The notes below the pieces were generated by a model, which was not told the DNA's origin, did no database searches, and saw only the letters and a program-made list of their open reading frames with translations. A stretch of 64,000 bases of DNA from Trichococcus alkaliphilus (GTDB lineage Bacteria > Bacillota > Bacilli > Lactobacillales > Aerococcaceae): the NCBI RefSeq assembly GCF_003008695.1, contig NZ_PXZT01000001.1, forward strand, positions 62,001 to 126,000. Reading direction: 5' to 3'. Both the position numbers and the translations under genes were made by a program. The first letter of the stretch is position 1. Each line of letters begins with the position of its first letter. This document shows, piece by piece, positions 2,523-32,297 of this stretch.

Positions 2523-3653
2523 TCACATCAAGAAAGAGCGGAATACTTCGTTACCGAGGAAAACACCTCTTTGGGTCAAACGGATCCTGTCGCCATCGAC
2601 CAGAAGCAGGCCGTCCGCAACCAAATCCGCGATGACGGCAGCATACTGGTCCAATAGAGGGGTCTGGAATTTATCGGCAAAATGTTTTTGGCTGACGCCA
2701 ACCATCGTACGCAGACCCAGAATCATTTCTTCTTCCATCTGTTCCTGTTTCGACAATTGCTGCTGACGGATGATCGGCAGATTATTTTCGCGCAATGGCG
2801 CCAAATACTGTTGGATCGGTCCATGGTTATGGTAGCGGATCCCATCGATATAGCCATGCGCACCTGCCCCGAAACCGAAATAGGATTCATTTTTCCAATA
2901 GGTAAGATTGTGCTGGGATTCATAGCCCGGCAGCGCAAAGTTGGAGATTTCGTATTGATTCCTGCCATTTTTTGACATCGTCTCGATGGCAAGGGCGTAC
3001 ATATCTGCCTCTGTGTCTTCCGAAGGCAACGGCAGTTTCCCCTGACGCATCAAGTTATAGAAAACCGTTTTATTCTCGAGGATCAAAGCGTAGATCGAGT
3101 AATGCGGCAAATCCAATTCCAAGGCTTTTTTAAGACTGTCTTCAAAATCGGCCATCGTTTGGTTCGGCAGGCGGAAGATCAGATCGATGGTCATATTTTC
3201 GAATCCGGCTCTGCGGGCATCGGCCACGGAAGTGTACACTTGCTCGGCTGTATGGATGCGGCCGATCTTTTTCAGGATGTCGTTATTGAACGATTGGACC
3301 CCCATACTCAAACGGTTGACCCCATAATCACGCATGATCTTCAGCTTCTCGAAAGAAATACTTTCCGGATTGGCTTCCATCGTGAACTCGGCGCCCTTCG
3401 GCAAGGAGTAGGTGCTGCGGATTCCGTTCAGCAGCCTCTCCAGCTGGCGCTCATTCAGTGTCGTCGGTGTGCCGCCGCCGATATAGAAAGTGCTGATTTC
3501 TTCTCGCGGGTGCAGCTGTTTCGACAGCTGCATTTCCTTTATCAAAGCATCCACGTATTCATCGACCGGTTGGCCTTCCAAGAACACTTTATTGAAGTCG
3601 CAATAGAAACAAATATGTTCGCAGAAAGGGATATGCATATAAGCCGCTGCCAT
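2523..3653 (-). CDS. hemW: Radical SAM protein HemW (coproporphyrinogen oxidase-like)
   Basis: A radical S-adenosylmethionine protein. It resembles oxygen-independent coproporphyrinogen III oxidase but is generally regarded as a haem-binding chaperone or trafficking protein rather than that oxidase. The 4Fe-4S motif is Cys11-x3-Cys15-x2-Cys18 (CEHICFYC), followed by GGGTPT at 59-64. The last third is the HemN C-terminal domain. Its ATG abuts the ribF stop codon (TAAATG), and the Shine-Dalgarno GAGGTG lies inside the ribF end, so the two are translationally coupled. No haem biosynthesis genes are in the window, so the haem acceptor here is unknown. Confidence 0.93.
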   Translation of the reverse strand: MAAAYMHIPFCEHICFYCDFNKVFLEGQPVDEYVDALIKEMQLSKQLHPREEISTFYIGGGTPTTLNERQLERLLNGIRSTYSLPKGAEFTMEANPESISFEKLKIMRDYGVNRLSMGVQSFNNDILKKIGRIHTAEQVYTSVADARRAGFENMTIDLIFRLPNQTMADFEDSLKKALELDLPHYSIYALILENKTVFYNLMRQGKLPLPSEDTEADMYALAIETMSKNGRNQYEISNFALPGYESQHNLTYWKNESYFGFGAGAHGYIDGIRYHNHGPIQQYLAPLRENNLPIIRQQQLSKQEQMEEEMILGLRTMVGVSQKHFADKFQTPLLDQYAAVIADLVADGLLLVDGDRIRLTQRGVFLGNEVFRSFLM

Positions 3654-26274: not shown

Positions 26275-29022
26275 TTATTTTTTCAGAAATTCTTGAATTT
26301 CCGCATTTATTTCCGCTTGACCGGCTACTTTTATCCCTACGCCCTCCGGAAGCATCTGTTGCATCCGTTTGGAATAATTGCTTTTAATCAATCTGTCGTC
26401 CAGGCAAATGACGACACCTTTCGTATTTCTGGAGCGGACGAGCCTGCCTATCCCCTGTTTCAGGCGGATCATCGCTCGCGGAAGAAACTCTTCATAGAAT
26501 GCCTTCTTGCCTTTGTCGTGGTGATACGCTTGGAAGGCGGCATTTTCCGGACGATGCGGCGGATCGAACGGCAGTCTGGTGATCACCAGGATCTCAACAG
26601 CTTGATCGGAAAAGTCGATGCCTTCCCAGTAAGAAGCAGAGCCCAGCAAAATCGCAGCCTCAGCCGACATGAAACGATTGTGCATCCTTCTCCGGCTGCC
26701 GGAGAAACCTTGCGCGAGTATTTCCGTACCCGGGAATCCGGAAGAGACAGCATTTTTGAGCTGGTTATGGACTTCCTCCAGCAAGCGGTTGGAGGTGAAC
26801 AGAACCAAAGCTTTGCCTTGTTGCGGGAGTACGATTTCCTGCATAGTCGAAACGATCTGTCTGGCCGCTTGTTTGTCATCCAACGACGTGATGGCAGCGA
26901 TGTCTGTCGGAAGGAAGATCCGTAAGCGTTCGCTCAACTTGTAGGGTGAAGCAAAATACGCTTCCTGTAATTCGGCTTCGCCGATTTTGTTTTTGAAATA
27001 GTCGATCGAGCCATCCACTCTGAGCGTCGAACTCAAATAAACGGTTCTGCTGAATCGCTCATTTATTTTGGAGTGGATTTCTTCCGAAAGGTCGATCTGG
27101 TTGATTTCGATCGCCAACGAAAGCAGGTCATTATCCCAAGTGTAGTGCAGCACATGATACGTGCCTAAGCGATCTTCAGAAAAATAGTGCAGATTGCTTT
27201 GGACCGCATCCAAGTCATCCAGCAGCGCCTTTGCGCGCGGACCCATAACCGGATCATTCCTCAAGCCGGCTTTATCCAGGCAACGCGTGGCGGCAAGCCT
27301 AGTCTCCTGTATGTACTGGTACATTTTCTTGAAGATTTTCTTCAGGCCGTTTTCAACCAGAAAATTCTCATCGAGATAAACTTCACCCTTTTCCCCCACC
27401 TCATGGATTAGGGAAAGCATCAATACTTCTTCTGACTGGGCACATTCCTGCTGTAATTGATCGATTGCGAATTCGAGGTTGAACAAATCATAGTCCAAGG
27501 AATCGCCATTCGGCGCCTTCTCTATTGCCTCGCGATAATCCCGCAGGAAGTAGCCGAAGCGCTTCAATCGCCGTTTCAGGAGGGACAGAGCCACACTTTT
27601 CTTGTGCGCATCCTGATAGACGCGCGGAAACTGATGTGCTTCATCGAGGATCAGGTTTATGGATTCACAATGGTCAAAAATAGCCAAATCATCGATGTGA
27701 TGACTCAAAAAGGAATGGTTCGTGACGATCAGGCTGGATTGTTCCGCTCTCTTGTTGTTGAAGGCAAAAAAATCGTCAGCTGCCCATTTTCCCTTCAAAG
27801 GGGCCTCGTGGCTGTCAAAGGTCAACTTTTCCCCGAGAAAATCAAAGTTCTGGGCTTGGCTCAATTCGCTGATATCCCCGGTTTCCGTCTCGGTCAACCA
27901 GACATAAATGCTCATCATGATCAAGGATTCTTTTTTGGTGAGGGCTTCCAGGGTCAATTCGGCCAATTTCTCCAGATGGATGATGTTCGTCTTCCCTTTC
28001 AATGAGCTTACCTGCAGCTCAAAAGGCAGCATTTTGCGCAACCGGGTCATCTCGTTATCCATGATCTGTTCCTGCAAAAGGAGCGTGGAGGTGCTGATAA
28101 GGACTTTGTTTGCGGGCGTCGCCTGATAAGCGGCAGGCAACAGATAGGCTAAAGTCTTCCCGATGCCAGGCGCAGCCTCGATTGCCAGATTTTGGGAAGT
28201 TTCGGCTTGGTGGAAGTCAAAAAGCGATTGCATCATCTCGATCTGCTCTGAACGGATTTCCAAGCCGTGATTTCCCATCAGGCTTTTTGCCACTTCCGAG
28301 AAATCGGAAATTTCTTTTTCCCTGTAAGCGGTCTGTTCCAAGAGTAAGTCCTTTTCCTTCAGCGCCAACCCATTTTTGACGTAGATTTTCTGCGGAAGAG
28401 GCGAGCGCATCTCTTTGGCGGTTTCATAGCTCTCATAGAAAAAGGAATCGTTGTCCACCTGACAATGCGCCGATAAGAAATTCAGCTTTTCAAGCGTGAC
28501 CAACGGCAAGTTGTTGGCCTTCTCCTTCAAATGGAGAAAAAGTTCCGCAGTTGCATGCGCATCGCTTGCGGCATCATGAGCACTGTCATGCGTCAGAACG
28601 AAGTGGTTTGATAAATCACCCAACCGATAGCTGGACAAGGTCGGATACAGGATTTTCGTCAACTCCACCGTGTCCATCGCGCGCAGCGAAAGCGGCGGCA
28701 TGCCGACTTCATGGAAGGAGTTGTCCAAAAAATGGTAATCGAAATGCACGTTATGCGCTACAAAAATGCAGCCTTCGAGCGTGTTATAGATGAAATCGCA
28801 GACGTCCTCAAAATAAGGCGCCTCTTTGACGTCCTTATTCCTGATTCCCGTCAACTTCTCGATGATATCCGGGATTTTTCTGCCCGGATTGATGGTTATA
28901 TTGATTTCCTGAACTATTTTGCCGGCCTGAAGCAAGGTACACCCGAATTGAATGATCCGATCCCCCCGCTTGAAGCTGGATCCCGTTGTCTCAAGATCGA
29001 CAATGGCATAGGTTTTCTTCAT
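26275..29022 (-). CDS. dinG: DnaQ-like exonuclease / DinG-family helicase
   Basis: A fusion typical of Firmicutes. The N-terminal DEDDh 3'-5' exonuclease (about 1-165) has Asp9 and Glu11 in IVDLETTG and the closing HDSAHDAASDAHAT block. The C-terminal XPD/DinG-type superfamily 2 module has Walker A AAPGIGKTLAYLL near residue 286 and DEAH near residue 460. The four iron-sulfur cysteines of Gram-negative DinG are not evident, as in Bacillus and Staphylococcus, where the protein acts mainly as a nuclease. Length 915. It heads the run dinG-ypmB-aspB-asnS-dnaD-nth. Confidence 0.94.
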   Translation of the reverse strand: MKKTYAIVDLETTGSSFKRGDRIIQFGCTLLQAGKIVQEINITINPGRKIPDIIEKLTGIRNKDVKEAPYFEDVCDFIYNTLEGCIFVAHNVHFDYHFLDNSFHEVGMPPLSLRAMDTVELTKILYPTLSSYRLGDLSNHFVLTHDSAHDAASDAHATAELFLHLKEKANNLPLVTLEKLNFLSAHCQVDNDSFFYESYETAKEMRSPLPQKIYVKNGLALKEKDLLLEQTAYREKEISDFSEVAKSLMGNHGLEIRSEQIEMMQSLFDFHQAETSQNLAIEAAPGIGKTLAYLLPAAYQATPANKVLISTSTLLLQEQIMDNEMTRLRKMLPFELQVSSLKGKTNIIHLEKLAELTLEALTKKESLIMMSIYVWLTETETGDISELSQAQNFDFLGEKLTFDSHEAPLKGKWAADDFFAFNNKRAEQSSLIVTNHSFLSHHIDDLAIFDHCESINLILDEAHQFPRVYQDAHKKSVALSLLKRRLKRFGYFLRDYREAIEKAPNGDSLDYDLFNLEFAIDQLQQECAQSEEVLMLSLIHEVGEKGEVYLDENFLVENGLKKIFKKMYQYIQETRLAATRCLDKAGLRNDPVMGPRAKALLDDLDAVQSNLHYFSEDRLGTYHVLHYTWDNDLLSLAIEINQIDLSEEIHSKINERFSRTVYLSSTLRVDGSIDYFKNKIGEAELQEAYFASPYKLSERLRIFLPTDIAAITSLDDKQAARQIVSTMQEIVLPQQGKALVLFTSNRLLEEVHNQLKNAVSSGFPGTEILAQGFSGSRRRMHNRFMSAEAAILLGSASYWEGIDFSDQAVEILVITRLPFDPPHRPENAAFQAYHHDKGKKAFYEEFLPRAMIRLKQGIGRLVRSRNTKGVVICLDDRLIKSNYSKRMQQMLPEGVGIKVAGQAEINAEIQEFLKK

Positions 29023-29295: not shown

Positions 29296-29772
29296 TTAAA
29301 CGATGTCAGGATAAATATCTTTTACATTTTTTTCCGGATCGATTACGATATATAATTTGTTTTCGGATGAAACGAATGAAGATTGATGTTCATTGTCGAA
29401 TCCATCGGTATCCGTAGCTTTATACGGGAAGTAGATGCGGTCCACTTCCACAATGACGTCGGATTTTGGGTGATCCTCATCCTGGTACAGGATATCCATT
29501 TTTTCGATGTCTTGATGGCTCGCAACGCGATCGAACATGCCTTGCTCAAGTCCGCCCAAGTTGATATCGCTCGTGTTGACATGATCCGCTTCTTGGTTAA
29601 TTTCGATACGCAAAGATTCGCAAGGGTGAATTTCTTGGAAATCACTGTTTCCGATTCGGCCATAGCTTGTTGTGACTTGTTTGATCCATAGATCTCCGAT
29701 ATATTCACGCTTGATCGTCCATGTTTCGCCGTTTCTAAAAATAAATCTCAAACCTGTCATTACTTTTTTCAT
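29296..29772 (-). CDS. Hypothetical protein, 158 residues, unrecognised
   Basis: I do not recognise a family. The protein is acidic and soluble, with no signal peptide or membrane segment. Its N-terminal third looks like beta strands (MTGLRFIFRNGETWTIKREY, then GDLWIKQVTTSYGRIG). Near the middle is LGGLEQGMFDRVASHQDIEK, and the C-terminal half is rich in Asp and Glu with VDRIYFPYKA and LYIVIDPEKNVKDIYPD. ATG 29772 has CAGGAGTG six bases upstream. It has its own promoter and terminator. Codon use looks like that of its neighbours, so recent transfer is not suggested. Confidence 0.8.
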   Translation of the reverse strand: MKKVMTGLRFIFRNGETWTIKREYIGDLWIKQVTTSYGRIGNSDFQEIHPCESLRIEINQEADHVNTSDINLGGLEQGMFDRVASHQDIEKMDILYQDEDHPKSDVIVEVDRIYFPYKATDTDGFDNEHQSSFVSSENKLYIVIDPEKNVKDIYPDIV

Positions 29773-29813
29773 CGAAATCACTCCTGATATATTTACTTTT
29801 TGAATATATAACT

Positions 29814-29883: not shown

Positions 29884-30255
29884 CTACAGGCTAGCCATGA
29901 ATTCATTTGCGTTGACGACTGCCCTTGTGTGCTTCGCCGATGCGATTTCATGACCTTGTGAATGGGCTGCGCATTCGAAGAAATATTTGTTTCCTCTGTG
30001 CTCCGTAACTCTGACCGTCACCGTTATTTCTGCGTGGATGGGAGAAGCTTTTTTATGATGCAGATCGCAGTGTATCCCGACTGTCGTGTCGCCTTCGGAA
30101 AGATGTTCCTTAACGATTCCCATGCAGGCATTTTCGATCATGGCCAGCAATGCCGGAGTTGCCAGAACCGACAATGTCCCAGAACCGATTTCGGAAGCTA
30201 AATCTTTTTGCCCGACGGTATAAACGGCGGCGAATGTCTCATCCAAATAAATCAT
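29884..30255 (-). other. Fused FlK-type hot-dog thioesterase domain of Cca
   Basis: Residues 399-521 of the Cca product. Compared from memory with FlK of Streptomyces cattleya, the pattern is clear. [17 protein letters not shown] aligns with the FlK helix, placing Thr431 at FlK Thr42 and Glu439 at Glu50. LHHKKASP puts His465 at His76, and KHTRAVV puts Arg509 at Arg120. These are the four residues described for the FlK active site. Two in-frame ATG codons (30267, 30255) lie at the junction, the upstream one with AAGGG eight bases before it, so a separate short product by internal initiation is possible. Substrate cannot be told. Confidence 0.8.
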
Positions 30256-31449
30256 CCTTCTTTTCATAATGAAATCCCTTAGCGCGGGGTGATTATTCTC
30301 CAGTTTGTTTGCCAAGACCAGCGTTTTCAATTCTTCGAATATCTCGCCCACGAAAGGGCCGCCACGTTGGATGCCCAATAAGGACATCAATTCTTTTCCG
30401 TCCAAGGCCAGGTCTTTCAGCGTATGGATCGGCATGGACTCATTCAATTCGATCAAATTTTCGCTCTGGTTCGGCAAACCGAACCCTTCGATGATGGCTT
30501 CTATCTGCATGGCGATTTCGATCCCTGTTTCGAATAGGAGTGGATAGTCCCAGAATTGTTGCAGGCGTTTGTTGAGTGCCTGCACGCCTATGCGAATATC
30601 CATGATTTCCTTGCGGGAACACTTCCATTGGCGCAAAAATGGCTCGATTGCTTCGTCCTTCAGATCAAGGAAATGGATCAACACAGTCCAAGCGATCGTC
30701 GTCCCTTTGAATTGCAGCGGAAACAGGGCCAAATCGATCAATGCCTTCTCCCGATTTTGGAAGCCTGGACACATCTGGAATAAACGTGTTTCGACAAAAA
30801 ACTTGATTCCGCCCTTGCGGTTCCTTCCGATGAGAAGCTTGTTCCACTCTTCGCGCACACGCTCTACCGCGATTTTTGATAGGAGCGGATGATACTCAAT
30901 GATGGCTTCCTTCGTCGCTTGCTCGATTTCAAAATCCAACTGGCTCACAAACCTGGCTGCGCGCATCATGCGCAAGGCATCTTCCCTGAAGCGTTCTTCC
31001 GGATTGCCGACTGCCCGAATCAATTTATTCGCCAAGTCCTCCTGCCCGTTGAAGTAGTCTTTTATGTTCCCGTGGCGGTCGATCGCAATCGCATTGATCG
31101 TAAAATCGCGCCTTTTCAAGTCGTCCTGCAGACTGCGCACATACTGGACTTTCTCTGGTCTGCGGAACTTTTCATACTTTGATTCTGTCCGGAAAGTTGT
31201 TATTTCGTATGTCTCACGCTCATGTAAAACCATCACCGTTCCATGTTGGATGCCTACATCAAAGGTGATCGGGAATATCCGCTGAATTTCTTCAGGCATG
31301 GCGCTTGATGCGATGTCGACATCCGAAATATCCAGATGCAGCAGCGTATCACGCACACTTCCCCCAACAAAGTAGGCTTCATATCCAGCCCGTTCGATGG
31401 CTTCGATGATCGGTATCGCTTTTTGAAATTCCGGTGCGTTTATGATCAT
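29884..31449 (-). CDS. cca: CCA tRNA nucleotidyltransferase fused to a FlK-like hot-dog thioesterase domain
   Basis: Residues 1 to about 396 are a complete class II CCA-adding enzyme, which builds or repairs the CCA end of tRNA. Visible motifs are GGSVRD (29-34), the metal-binding DVD (43-45), RRDFTINA (113-120) and [12 protein letters not shown] (156-167), then the neck, body and tail helices. Bacillus Cca is about this long (397). The reading frame continues for about 123 residues into a second domain that resembles fluoroacetyl-CoA thioesterase FlK (see separate entry). I see no frameshift or stop between the two. ATG overlaps the dapB stop by four bases (ATGA). The Cca assignment is certain; the role of the extension is unknown. 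Confidence 0.93.
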
Positions 31450-32234
31450 AGGAAGTTTTCCAATCCATAGATCAGACGATCGATTTCCATTACTTTTCTG
31501 CAGGAAAGGGCTACACCGTTCATGAAAGAGTCACGGTCATATGAATCGTGGCGGATGATCAAACCTTCACCGGCACTTCCGAATTGCACTTGCTGGTGCG
31601 CAACCAGGCCCGGCAGGCGGACACTGTGGATTTTCATGCCGTGGTAATCAGCCCCTCTTGCACCTTCGATCAATTCTTTCTCTTCCGGATGCCCTTGTGG
31701 ATGGTCGCCCCTCACTTCGTAAATCAATTCGGCTGTTTTGATGGCTGTTCCGCTCGGCGCATCCAATTTGTTCTCATGATGCAATTCCATGATTTCCACA
31801 TCCGGGAAATATTTCGCTGCTTTTGCTGCGAATTCCATCATCAACACGGCACCGATCGCAAAATTCGGGGCAATCAAGCCGCCTAAACCCAACTCTTTAG
31901 AGTAGTTGGTCAATTCCTCAAGTTGTTCGCTGGAAAAGCCGGTAGTGCCGATTACGGGGCGCATGCCGTTTTCAAGTGCGAAACGCGTGTTGTCATAGGC
32001 TGCGTCCGGTCTTGAGAAATCGATCCAAACATCAGCTTCGACTTCCTTGACGAGCGTCGCTTTGTCACTGAACACTTTCACAGGATGTCCGGCATATTGC
32101 GGTAATTCATTCAGTTGTTTCTCTGTTGCGAAAGGATCGTATACAGCTGCCAGAATAAAGTCTTCCTGACGCAAGACCATATTTGTGCAGGCTGTTCCCA
32201 TTTTGCCTTTAAATCCCGAAACTACAATTTTCAT
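31446..32234 (-). CDS. dapB: 4-hydroxy-tetrahydrodipicolinate reductase
   Basis: Lysine/diaminopimelate pathway reductase, needed for cell-wall precursor synthesis. The nucleotide-binding loop is GFKGKMG near residue 8, and the catalytic block is [15 protein letters not shown] near residue 150. ATG 32234 gives [13 protein letters not shown], with GAAGGGAA upstream; a longer in-frame reading adds 19 residues with no family match. Length 262. The dapB-cca adjacency resembles Bacillus, though the genes found between them there are missing. Confidence 0.95.
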
Positions 32235-32297
32235 TCTACACGTTCCCTTCCGTTCAACGCTGCCGGCACGCTTGTTCCGCGCCATATCCACGTTGTA

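Follow-up and report, generated by a model that had tools for sequence, protein, structure and literature searches.

Fusion of the CCA-adding enzyme to an FlK-family thioesterase in Trichococcus and a second genus, with a candidate internal start in the linker

In Trichococcus the CCA-adding enzyme is joined in frame to a hot-dog thioesterase domain of the FlK family, and this is a genuine, lineage-wide gene fusion that also occurs in a second genus (g12), which we suspect to be Jeotgalibaca. We analysed it in the window, a stretch of 64,000 nucleotides of Trichococcus alkaliphilus (contig NZ_PXZT01000001.1), and in related genomes. The explanation that serves best as a whole, to which we give a probability of roughly two in three, is that two neighbouring genes were fused in place, that the two domains retain independent chemistries and that an internal start has been kept between them.

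The fused gene and its two parts

The fusion is encoded by one open reading frame of 521 amino acids on the minus strand (29884..31449, ATG start at 31449), while the plus strand of the same positions, read in frame 1, contains many stops; the earlier note had placed the gene correctly and had given no strand. Upstream lies dapB (31446..32291, minus strand; Pfam DapB_N and DapB_C), which overlaps the start of the fusion gene by four bases (31446-31449), and thus the start of the fusion itself is probably coupled to dapB translation. On the other side, also on the minus strand, lie a conserved gene for a 161-aa protein (29296..29781), which serves as a marker of shared synteny, and then a dinG-type exonuclease/helicase gene (26275..29022), the next in the conserved order. 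The 161-aa protein has no Pfam match at E 0.01; it adjoins cca or FlK in loci of Trichococcus, g12, Vagococcus, Enterococcus and Granulicatella.

The CCA part (30256..31449, minus strand, about residues 1-398) is a class II CCA-adding enzyme. Pfam assigns PolyA_pol to residues 25-145, PolyA_pol_RNAbd to 172-226 and tRNA_NucTran2_2 to 246-394, and the NCBIfam model NF009814 (CCA tRNA nucleotidyltransferase) covers residues 7-398 with 472.7 bits against a cut-off of 290. The best structural counterpart found by Foldseek is the CCA-adding enzyme of B. stearothermophilus (1miv_A, E 5.4e-32, 40% identity, TM-score by target 0.88), and between them Pfam and Foldseek show the head, the RNA-binding and the tail domain as well as the fold of class II. 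AlphaFold2 gave a mean pLDDT of 86.2 for the whole protein; the values exceed 90 in most blocks of the CCA part, are about 72 in the blocks of the linker (residues 391-410) and fall below 50 at residues 89-102 and 420-426. The fused enzyme very likely adds CCA to tRNA, because it is the only match to the query in its genome; the head and neck would perform this reaction.

The C-terminal domain (29887..30216, minus strand, residues 412-521) belongs to the FlK family, as the earlier note had proposed together with a search of the tail against Pfam and the FlK structures, and such a search returned both profile and structure matches. Pfam model PF22636 matches residues 412-514 (E 7.9e-27, 93.9 bits, cut-off 27), and the tail alone retrieves the FlK structure 3p3f by sequence (E 6.3e-8) and nothing from NCBIfam. 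AlphaFold2 modelled the domain alone with a pLDDT of 96.6, and the best Foldseek match of this hot-dog fold is again FlK (3p3i, E 1.8e-10, TMq 0.93); in a profile search of the PDB, FlK came first, followed by TM0581, Taci_0573 and TTHA0967-type entries and by weaker entries of the thioesterase superfamily. The four residues singled out in the earlier note, Thr431, Glu439, His465 and Arg509, pair in a gapless alignment with the identical residues 42, 50, 76 and 120 of 3kv7, which we take to be the catalytic residues of FlK, and all four are intact in 13/13 Trichococcus genomes. One further alignment was set aside, since the rows with a thioesterase alone shared just 14-20% identity with its first row and seemed to be misaligned. 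Within Trichococcus the domain is under purifying selection (pN 0.082 vs. pS 0.460).

The domain appears to be a member of the FlK family and not FlK proper. The window protein and the other aligned rows have a six-residue gap at the Phe33/Phe36 segment of FlK (part of the FlK row of this alignment was entered by hand), a segment that presumably has a role in fluoroacetyl specificity; the structure of an F36A mutant is among the PDB entry titles. Fluoroacetyl-CoA specificity is therefore not expected. We infer that the fused domain is a general acyl-CoA thioesterase, which would hydrolyse a small acyl-CoA thioester.

Distribution and origin of the fusion

A search of the family gave a cca match in 76/76 genomes and the fusion, each time free of internal stops, in 19 of them: 13/13 genomes of one genus, identified as Trichococcus by named records carrying the fusion, and 6/6 genomes of g12. 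The earlier note had held that absence of the extension from close relatives, or a stop near the junction, would speak against the fusion, and neither was found. The search of named records yielded 80 loci, nine of them fused, and several of these nine are the same assemblies as genomes of the family search. One record, MUZD01000002.1 (L095), titled Sedimentibacter sp. SX930, carries a cca-FlK protein 99% identical to that of the window and is probably a mislabelled Trichococcus genome. Among open-licence PMC papers, the searches brought up no description of a fusion between cca and a thioesterase.

Among the 71 unfused named loci, FlK is a separate open reading frame directly after cca in nine (three Vagococcus and six Enterococcus); the remaining 62, which include other Enterococcus species, have no FlK frame of at least 60 codons within the stretch covered. 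A set of 60 relatives comprised 14 fused genomes and 46 unfused ones, six of the latter with an FlK match beside cca (G042, G045, G049, G051, G056 and G059); in this set FlK was over the cut-off in 33/60. In G056, G049 and Vagococcus bubulae, cca and FlK even share one frame with a single stop between them. A separate FlK match is present in 26 of the 57 unfused family genomes, in 11 on the same contig but far from cca and in 15 on another contig, and by the listed coordinates none of the 26 lies beside cca. Order-wide, in 295 genomes drawn evenly, full-length stop-free matches came from at least five Trichococcus and at least three g12 genomes, and at least 14 more matches span both parts with one to three stops between. 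In the phylum FlK was over the cut-off in 109/348 genomes; among the matches listed, most lie in short frames and some in open frames of 262-593 codons.

Two lines of evidence bear on the origin. In a tree of 47 rows that took in 11 of the 19 fused proteins (five of Trichococcus and six of g12), the fused CCA parts form one clade with support 100/100. The gene order rpsA, der, hup, TPR gene, UPF0302 gene, (dapB), cca, FlK, the gene at 29296, (dinG) is common, in whole or in part, to Trichococcus, g12, three Vagococcus and five Enterococcus loci, and in those Vagococcus and Enterococcus loci FlK is a separate gene. A separate FlK at the same position in the syntenic loci indicates that the fusion joined neighbours in place. 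The tree built from FlK sequences (38 rows, 121 columns) is a weak one: its best version puts the fused domains in two places, and a single clade of them is not rejected (p-AU 0.365). The simplest history would be that cca and the FlK-family gene downstream of it, originally separate, were fused where they stood, once, in the common ancestor of Trichococcus and its sister genus g12, as the tree of CCA parts suggests, and we regard such a single-origin fusion of neighbours as nearly certain. The joining of neighbours had been offered in the earlier note as one of two alternatives, and it accords with the separate FlK gene directly after cca in Vagococcus, Enterococcus and other genomes of the order.

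The g12 loci show some differences in layout. No match for dapB was obtained in the five that were read (L175-L179), where cca directly follows the UPF0302 gene; in G093 (L177:9030-12805) about 3.8 kb separate cca-FlK from the 29296-type gene, a distance of about 100-150 bases in the other four.

The linker and a candidate internal start

The linker (30238..30270, minus strand, residues 394-404) follows the pattern I.[KR]R[RK].IY[LM]DE in 19/19 fusions and in 0/33 aligned unfused CCA enzymes, whose C termini lie 1 to 10 residues beyond the K396 column. In Trichococcus its DNA reads AGAAGG, nine bases and TTG-GAT-GAG, and separate FlK proteins begin close to the point of TTG-GAT-GAG. Read from its DNA, the linker has the appearance of the retained start region of the old thioesterase gene: a candidate Shine-Dalgarno (SD) sequence (30256..30261, minus strand), read as Arg397-Arg398 in the fusion, and a candidate TTG start at codon 402 (30244..30246, minus strand), which would give a free thioesterase of 120 amino acids ending at 29884.

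Codon 402 is TTG in 13/13 Trichococcus genomes, with an SD duplex energy of -8.1 or stronger in each, as computed, like all such energies here, against an assumed anti-SD sequence. TTG is a weak start codon. Among the 21 columns of the gene that have a start-type codon in at least 12/13 Trichococcus genomes, column 402 has the strongest SD (mean -8.28, the true start having -5.98). A wider control took in 69 in-frame internal columns from 10 genes of the region (9 or 10 Trichococcus sequences), all of them columns where every member has a start-type codon. Column 402 ranks third in it by mean SD, and no other column reaches -8 or below in every member. T. palustris (G009) has the two Arg codons in the opposite order, AGG-AGA for AGA-AGG, yet its SD is strong (-10.4). 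In g12 column 402 is TTG in G094, G093 and G092 (SD energies -9.4, -8.1 and -13.7), ATG in G095 (-6.6), CTG in G023 (-2.4) and TTA in G091 (-1.5); start codon and SD are thus both kept in 4/6 and both lost in 2/6 genomes.

The earlier note had seen room for a separate thioesterase product starting at two in-frame ATG codons. The room is there, and the ATG at 30267 with AAGGG eight bases upstream is indeed present in the window; the better candidate for a start is the TTG at 30246-30244. The ATG at 30267 (codon 395) is ATG in only 7/13 Trichococcus genomes, and the one at 30255 (codon 399) is conserved in 13/13 but has a poor SD at usable distance (mean -1.78, rank 17 of 21).

Diversity at synonymous sites was compared in sliding sets of codons. 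Among 12 sequences (G009 left out) codons 396-407 are the lowest of all 12-codon sets (0.063 vs. a mean of 0.355); with all 13 sequences the minimum shifts to sets at the 5' end and at residue 35, the junction coming tenth with its best set (394; 0.198). In a control of 10 genes (about 3100-3200 sets, first 40 and last 25 codons excluded) the best junction set ranks 3, 4 and 10 for lengths of 9, 12 and 15 codons with T. palustris; leaving that species out changes the ranks to 6 (tied at zero), 1 and 3. Other genes of the region have sets as low, and therefore the synonymous dip counts as support and not as proof.

These data have to be weighed against a plain fusion with one product, in which the stop was lost, no internal start is used, the linker protein packs the hot-dog domain against the CCA tail and the resemblance to an SD arises incidentally from Lys-Arg-Arg codons. 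Such codons (AGA/AGG) readily give SD-like DNA: with the amino acids fixed and the codon usage of the window, the probability of the SD alone is 0.069-0.087, and that of an SD of -8.1 or below together with a start codon is 0.028-0.036 per lineage, the lineages sharing ancestry. The linker amino acids persist in G023 and G091, both of which have lost the start and the SD, so the conservation may be due in part to selection on the protein. Other genes of the region show equal synonymous dips. However, start codon and SD covary across g12, the TTG is kept throughout Trichococcus, no other column of the 69-column control has so strong an SD in every member, and the moderate model confidence of the linker (block means of 72 at residues 391-410) does not suggest a tight interface. 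On balance a single product seems to us unlikely, and use of the internal start is moderately favoured.

According to the reading with a retained start, the old ribosome-binding site and start codon of the thioesterase appear to survive inside the linker, and ribosomes probably also initiate at TTG402. The fusion gene would then probably make a free thioesterase beside the joined form, and the free protein may form dimers, either with a second free subunit or with the fused copy. One could go further and suppose that the KRRxIYLDE linker is the SD, spacer and start of the swallowed gene read as protein, that free subunits dimerise with the tail, so that each fused enzyme would have a complete hot-dog dimer and need not associate with a second CCA enzyme, and that acyl-CoA binding could tune the repair of tRNA 3' ends; this extension of the idea is unlikely, and we offer it as speculation.

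Decay of the fused domain in the second genus

A second FlK gene, which stands free, occurs in three of the g12 genomes (G023, G091 and G092); none was found over the cut-off in G093, G094 and G095, with sub-threshold matches in G094 and G095. The free-standing proteins keep the GSG loop, which is lost from the fused domains of the same three genomes and kept in those of G093, G094 and G095. The family scores of the fused domains are 77.8, 66.0 and 58.0 with a spare FlK gene vs. 102.8, 99.5 and 91.3 without one, the fused domain of G091 has Tyr in place of the catalytic His, and both species that lack the start and SD (G023 and G091) are among those with another FlK gene. The three genomes are one clade in the CCA tree, and therefore the correlation of decay with a spare gene has to be counted as one event. 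Dividing pN of the FlK part by pN of the CCA part gives 2.6-2.8 among the decayed three and 1.1-1.6 among the other three g12 genomes; since pairs of Trichococcus give 1.7, 2.3 and 5.2, this measure says little by itself. On the simplest interpretation, a free-standing copy is able to take over from the fused domain, and thus the thioesterase task would not depend on the CCA enzyme.

The catalytic Thr (residue 431) is Ser in 5/6 g12 fusions. The PDB contains a T42S mutant of FlK (3kuv, by its title), which indicates that this change may be tolerated.

Role of the thioesterase

The hot-dog domain of FapR senses malonyl-CoA, is non-catalytic and is joined to a DNA-binding domain. By analogy, the fused domain could sense a ligand and adjust CCA addition to the acyl-CoA state, with no need of catalysis. 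Its position after the tRNA-binding tail would suit such a role, and the domain is still there in g12 fusions with the Ser and Tyr replacements. Against this, the four residues are intact in all Trichococcus genomes, Thr to Ser may keep activity, and the decay accompanies a spare FlK gene, as one would expect if function were being lost and not altered; we hold a pure sensor to be very improbable. The preferred reading is that both domains have retained their folds and, in Trichococcus, their active-site residues, and that each most likely still carries out its own chemistry.

We scanned 20 neighbouring open reading frames of 12 free-standing FlK loci in the order and found no common theme. 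An aldo/keto reductase gene occurs in two loci, ferric-reductase-like and helix-turn-helix genes in two, and an M20 peptidase gene in two, each time next to an AddB-type gene that was recognised by Pfam in one locus and by eye in the other. Single cases are DUF1697, multicopper-oxidase-family, GHMP kinase, Methyltransf_4 and acyl-CoA dehydrogenase genes. The acyl-CoA dehydrogenase gene is in G026 (L054:42-1833), where FlK lies downstream of it on the same strand, a possible hint at the substrate. The Methyltransf_4 gene, of what we take to be the family of tRNA m7G methyltransferases, faces one of the 12 FlK genes from the other strand. Judged from these genes, the former neighbour fits acyl-CoA chemistry and the latter would fit an action on tRNA.

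The earlier note had suggested that the thioesterase might act on tRNA, clearing acyl groups or a wrong acyl-tRNA near the CCA end. The physical fusion, the adjacency to cca in several genera and the single Methyltransf_4 neighbour are in line with this. However, by the listed coordinates FlK lies apart from cca wherever it was found in unfused family genomes, the neighbours of the 12 free-standing genes are mixed, with one acyl-CoA dehydrogenase just upstream, and the fused domain decays beside a spare gene. The position of the junction also speaks against it: in a class II A-adding enzyme the tail serves to fix the elbow of the tRNA and the 3' end enters between head and neck, as stated in the portion of PMC3925840 consulted, and likewise in that of the review PMC4810234. 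A domain attached after the elbow-binding tail is, by these excerpts, not placed at the CCA end by default. A tRNA-directed role is therefore unsupported and, in our estimate, even less probable than a sensor, and a function independent of tRNA is quite probable. In E. faecalis, two thioesterases of unknown specificity rise with sulfide, according to an excerpt of PMC9405070.

Lastly, loss of the stop through an assembly or sequencing error has a negligible probability and is ruled out by the same fusion in 19 genomes of two genera and in the nine named records, several of them the same assemblies.

Significance and comparison with known systems

If the internal start is used, the gene is a clear natural case of operon neighbours that became one protein while the second is still made separately, and the lineage would display the stages of this process: separate genes, fused genes with the start, and fused genes that have lost the start and are decaying. 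The fusion also warns against inferring a metabolic link from the fusion of domains.

The closest comparison is with the FlK proteins encoded beside cca in Vagococcus and Enterococcus, which share 33-39% identity with the fused domain (eight compared) and the same position after cca. Unlike the fusion, they have their own start and stop codons and are separate proteins. With the B. stearothermophilus enzyme (1miv) the CCA part shares the nucleotidyltransferase, RNA-binding and tail domains at 40% identity over the match; contrastingly, the fusion bears a C-terminal linker, whose motif the aligned unfused enzymes lack, and a hot-dog domain. FlK itself (3kv7, 3p3f), which we assume to be from Streptomyces cattleya, has the same Pfam family and fold with Thr, Glu, His and Arg conserved, and differs by 24% identity, by the six-residue gap at the Phe33/Phe36 segment and by not being fused to a tRNA enzyme. 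FapR, the subject of PMC3536700 and PMC5052256, is a further comparison. Like it, the fusion has a hot-dog domain joined to a nucleic-acid-binding protein; unlike that sensor, the Trichococcus fusion keeps its catalytic residues. Finally, in clpB-type genes, as presented in an excerpt of PMC6168691, a full-length product is accompanied by an N-terminally shorter one, and the fusion gene may likewise have a short form, predicted in the same frame. The difference from the genes of that excerpt is that here the internal start is apparently the old start of a once separate gene.
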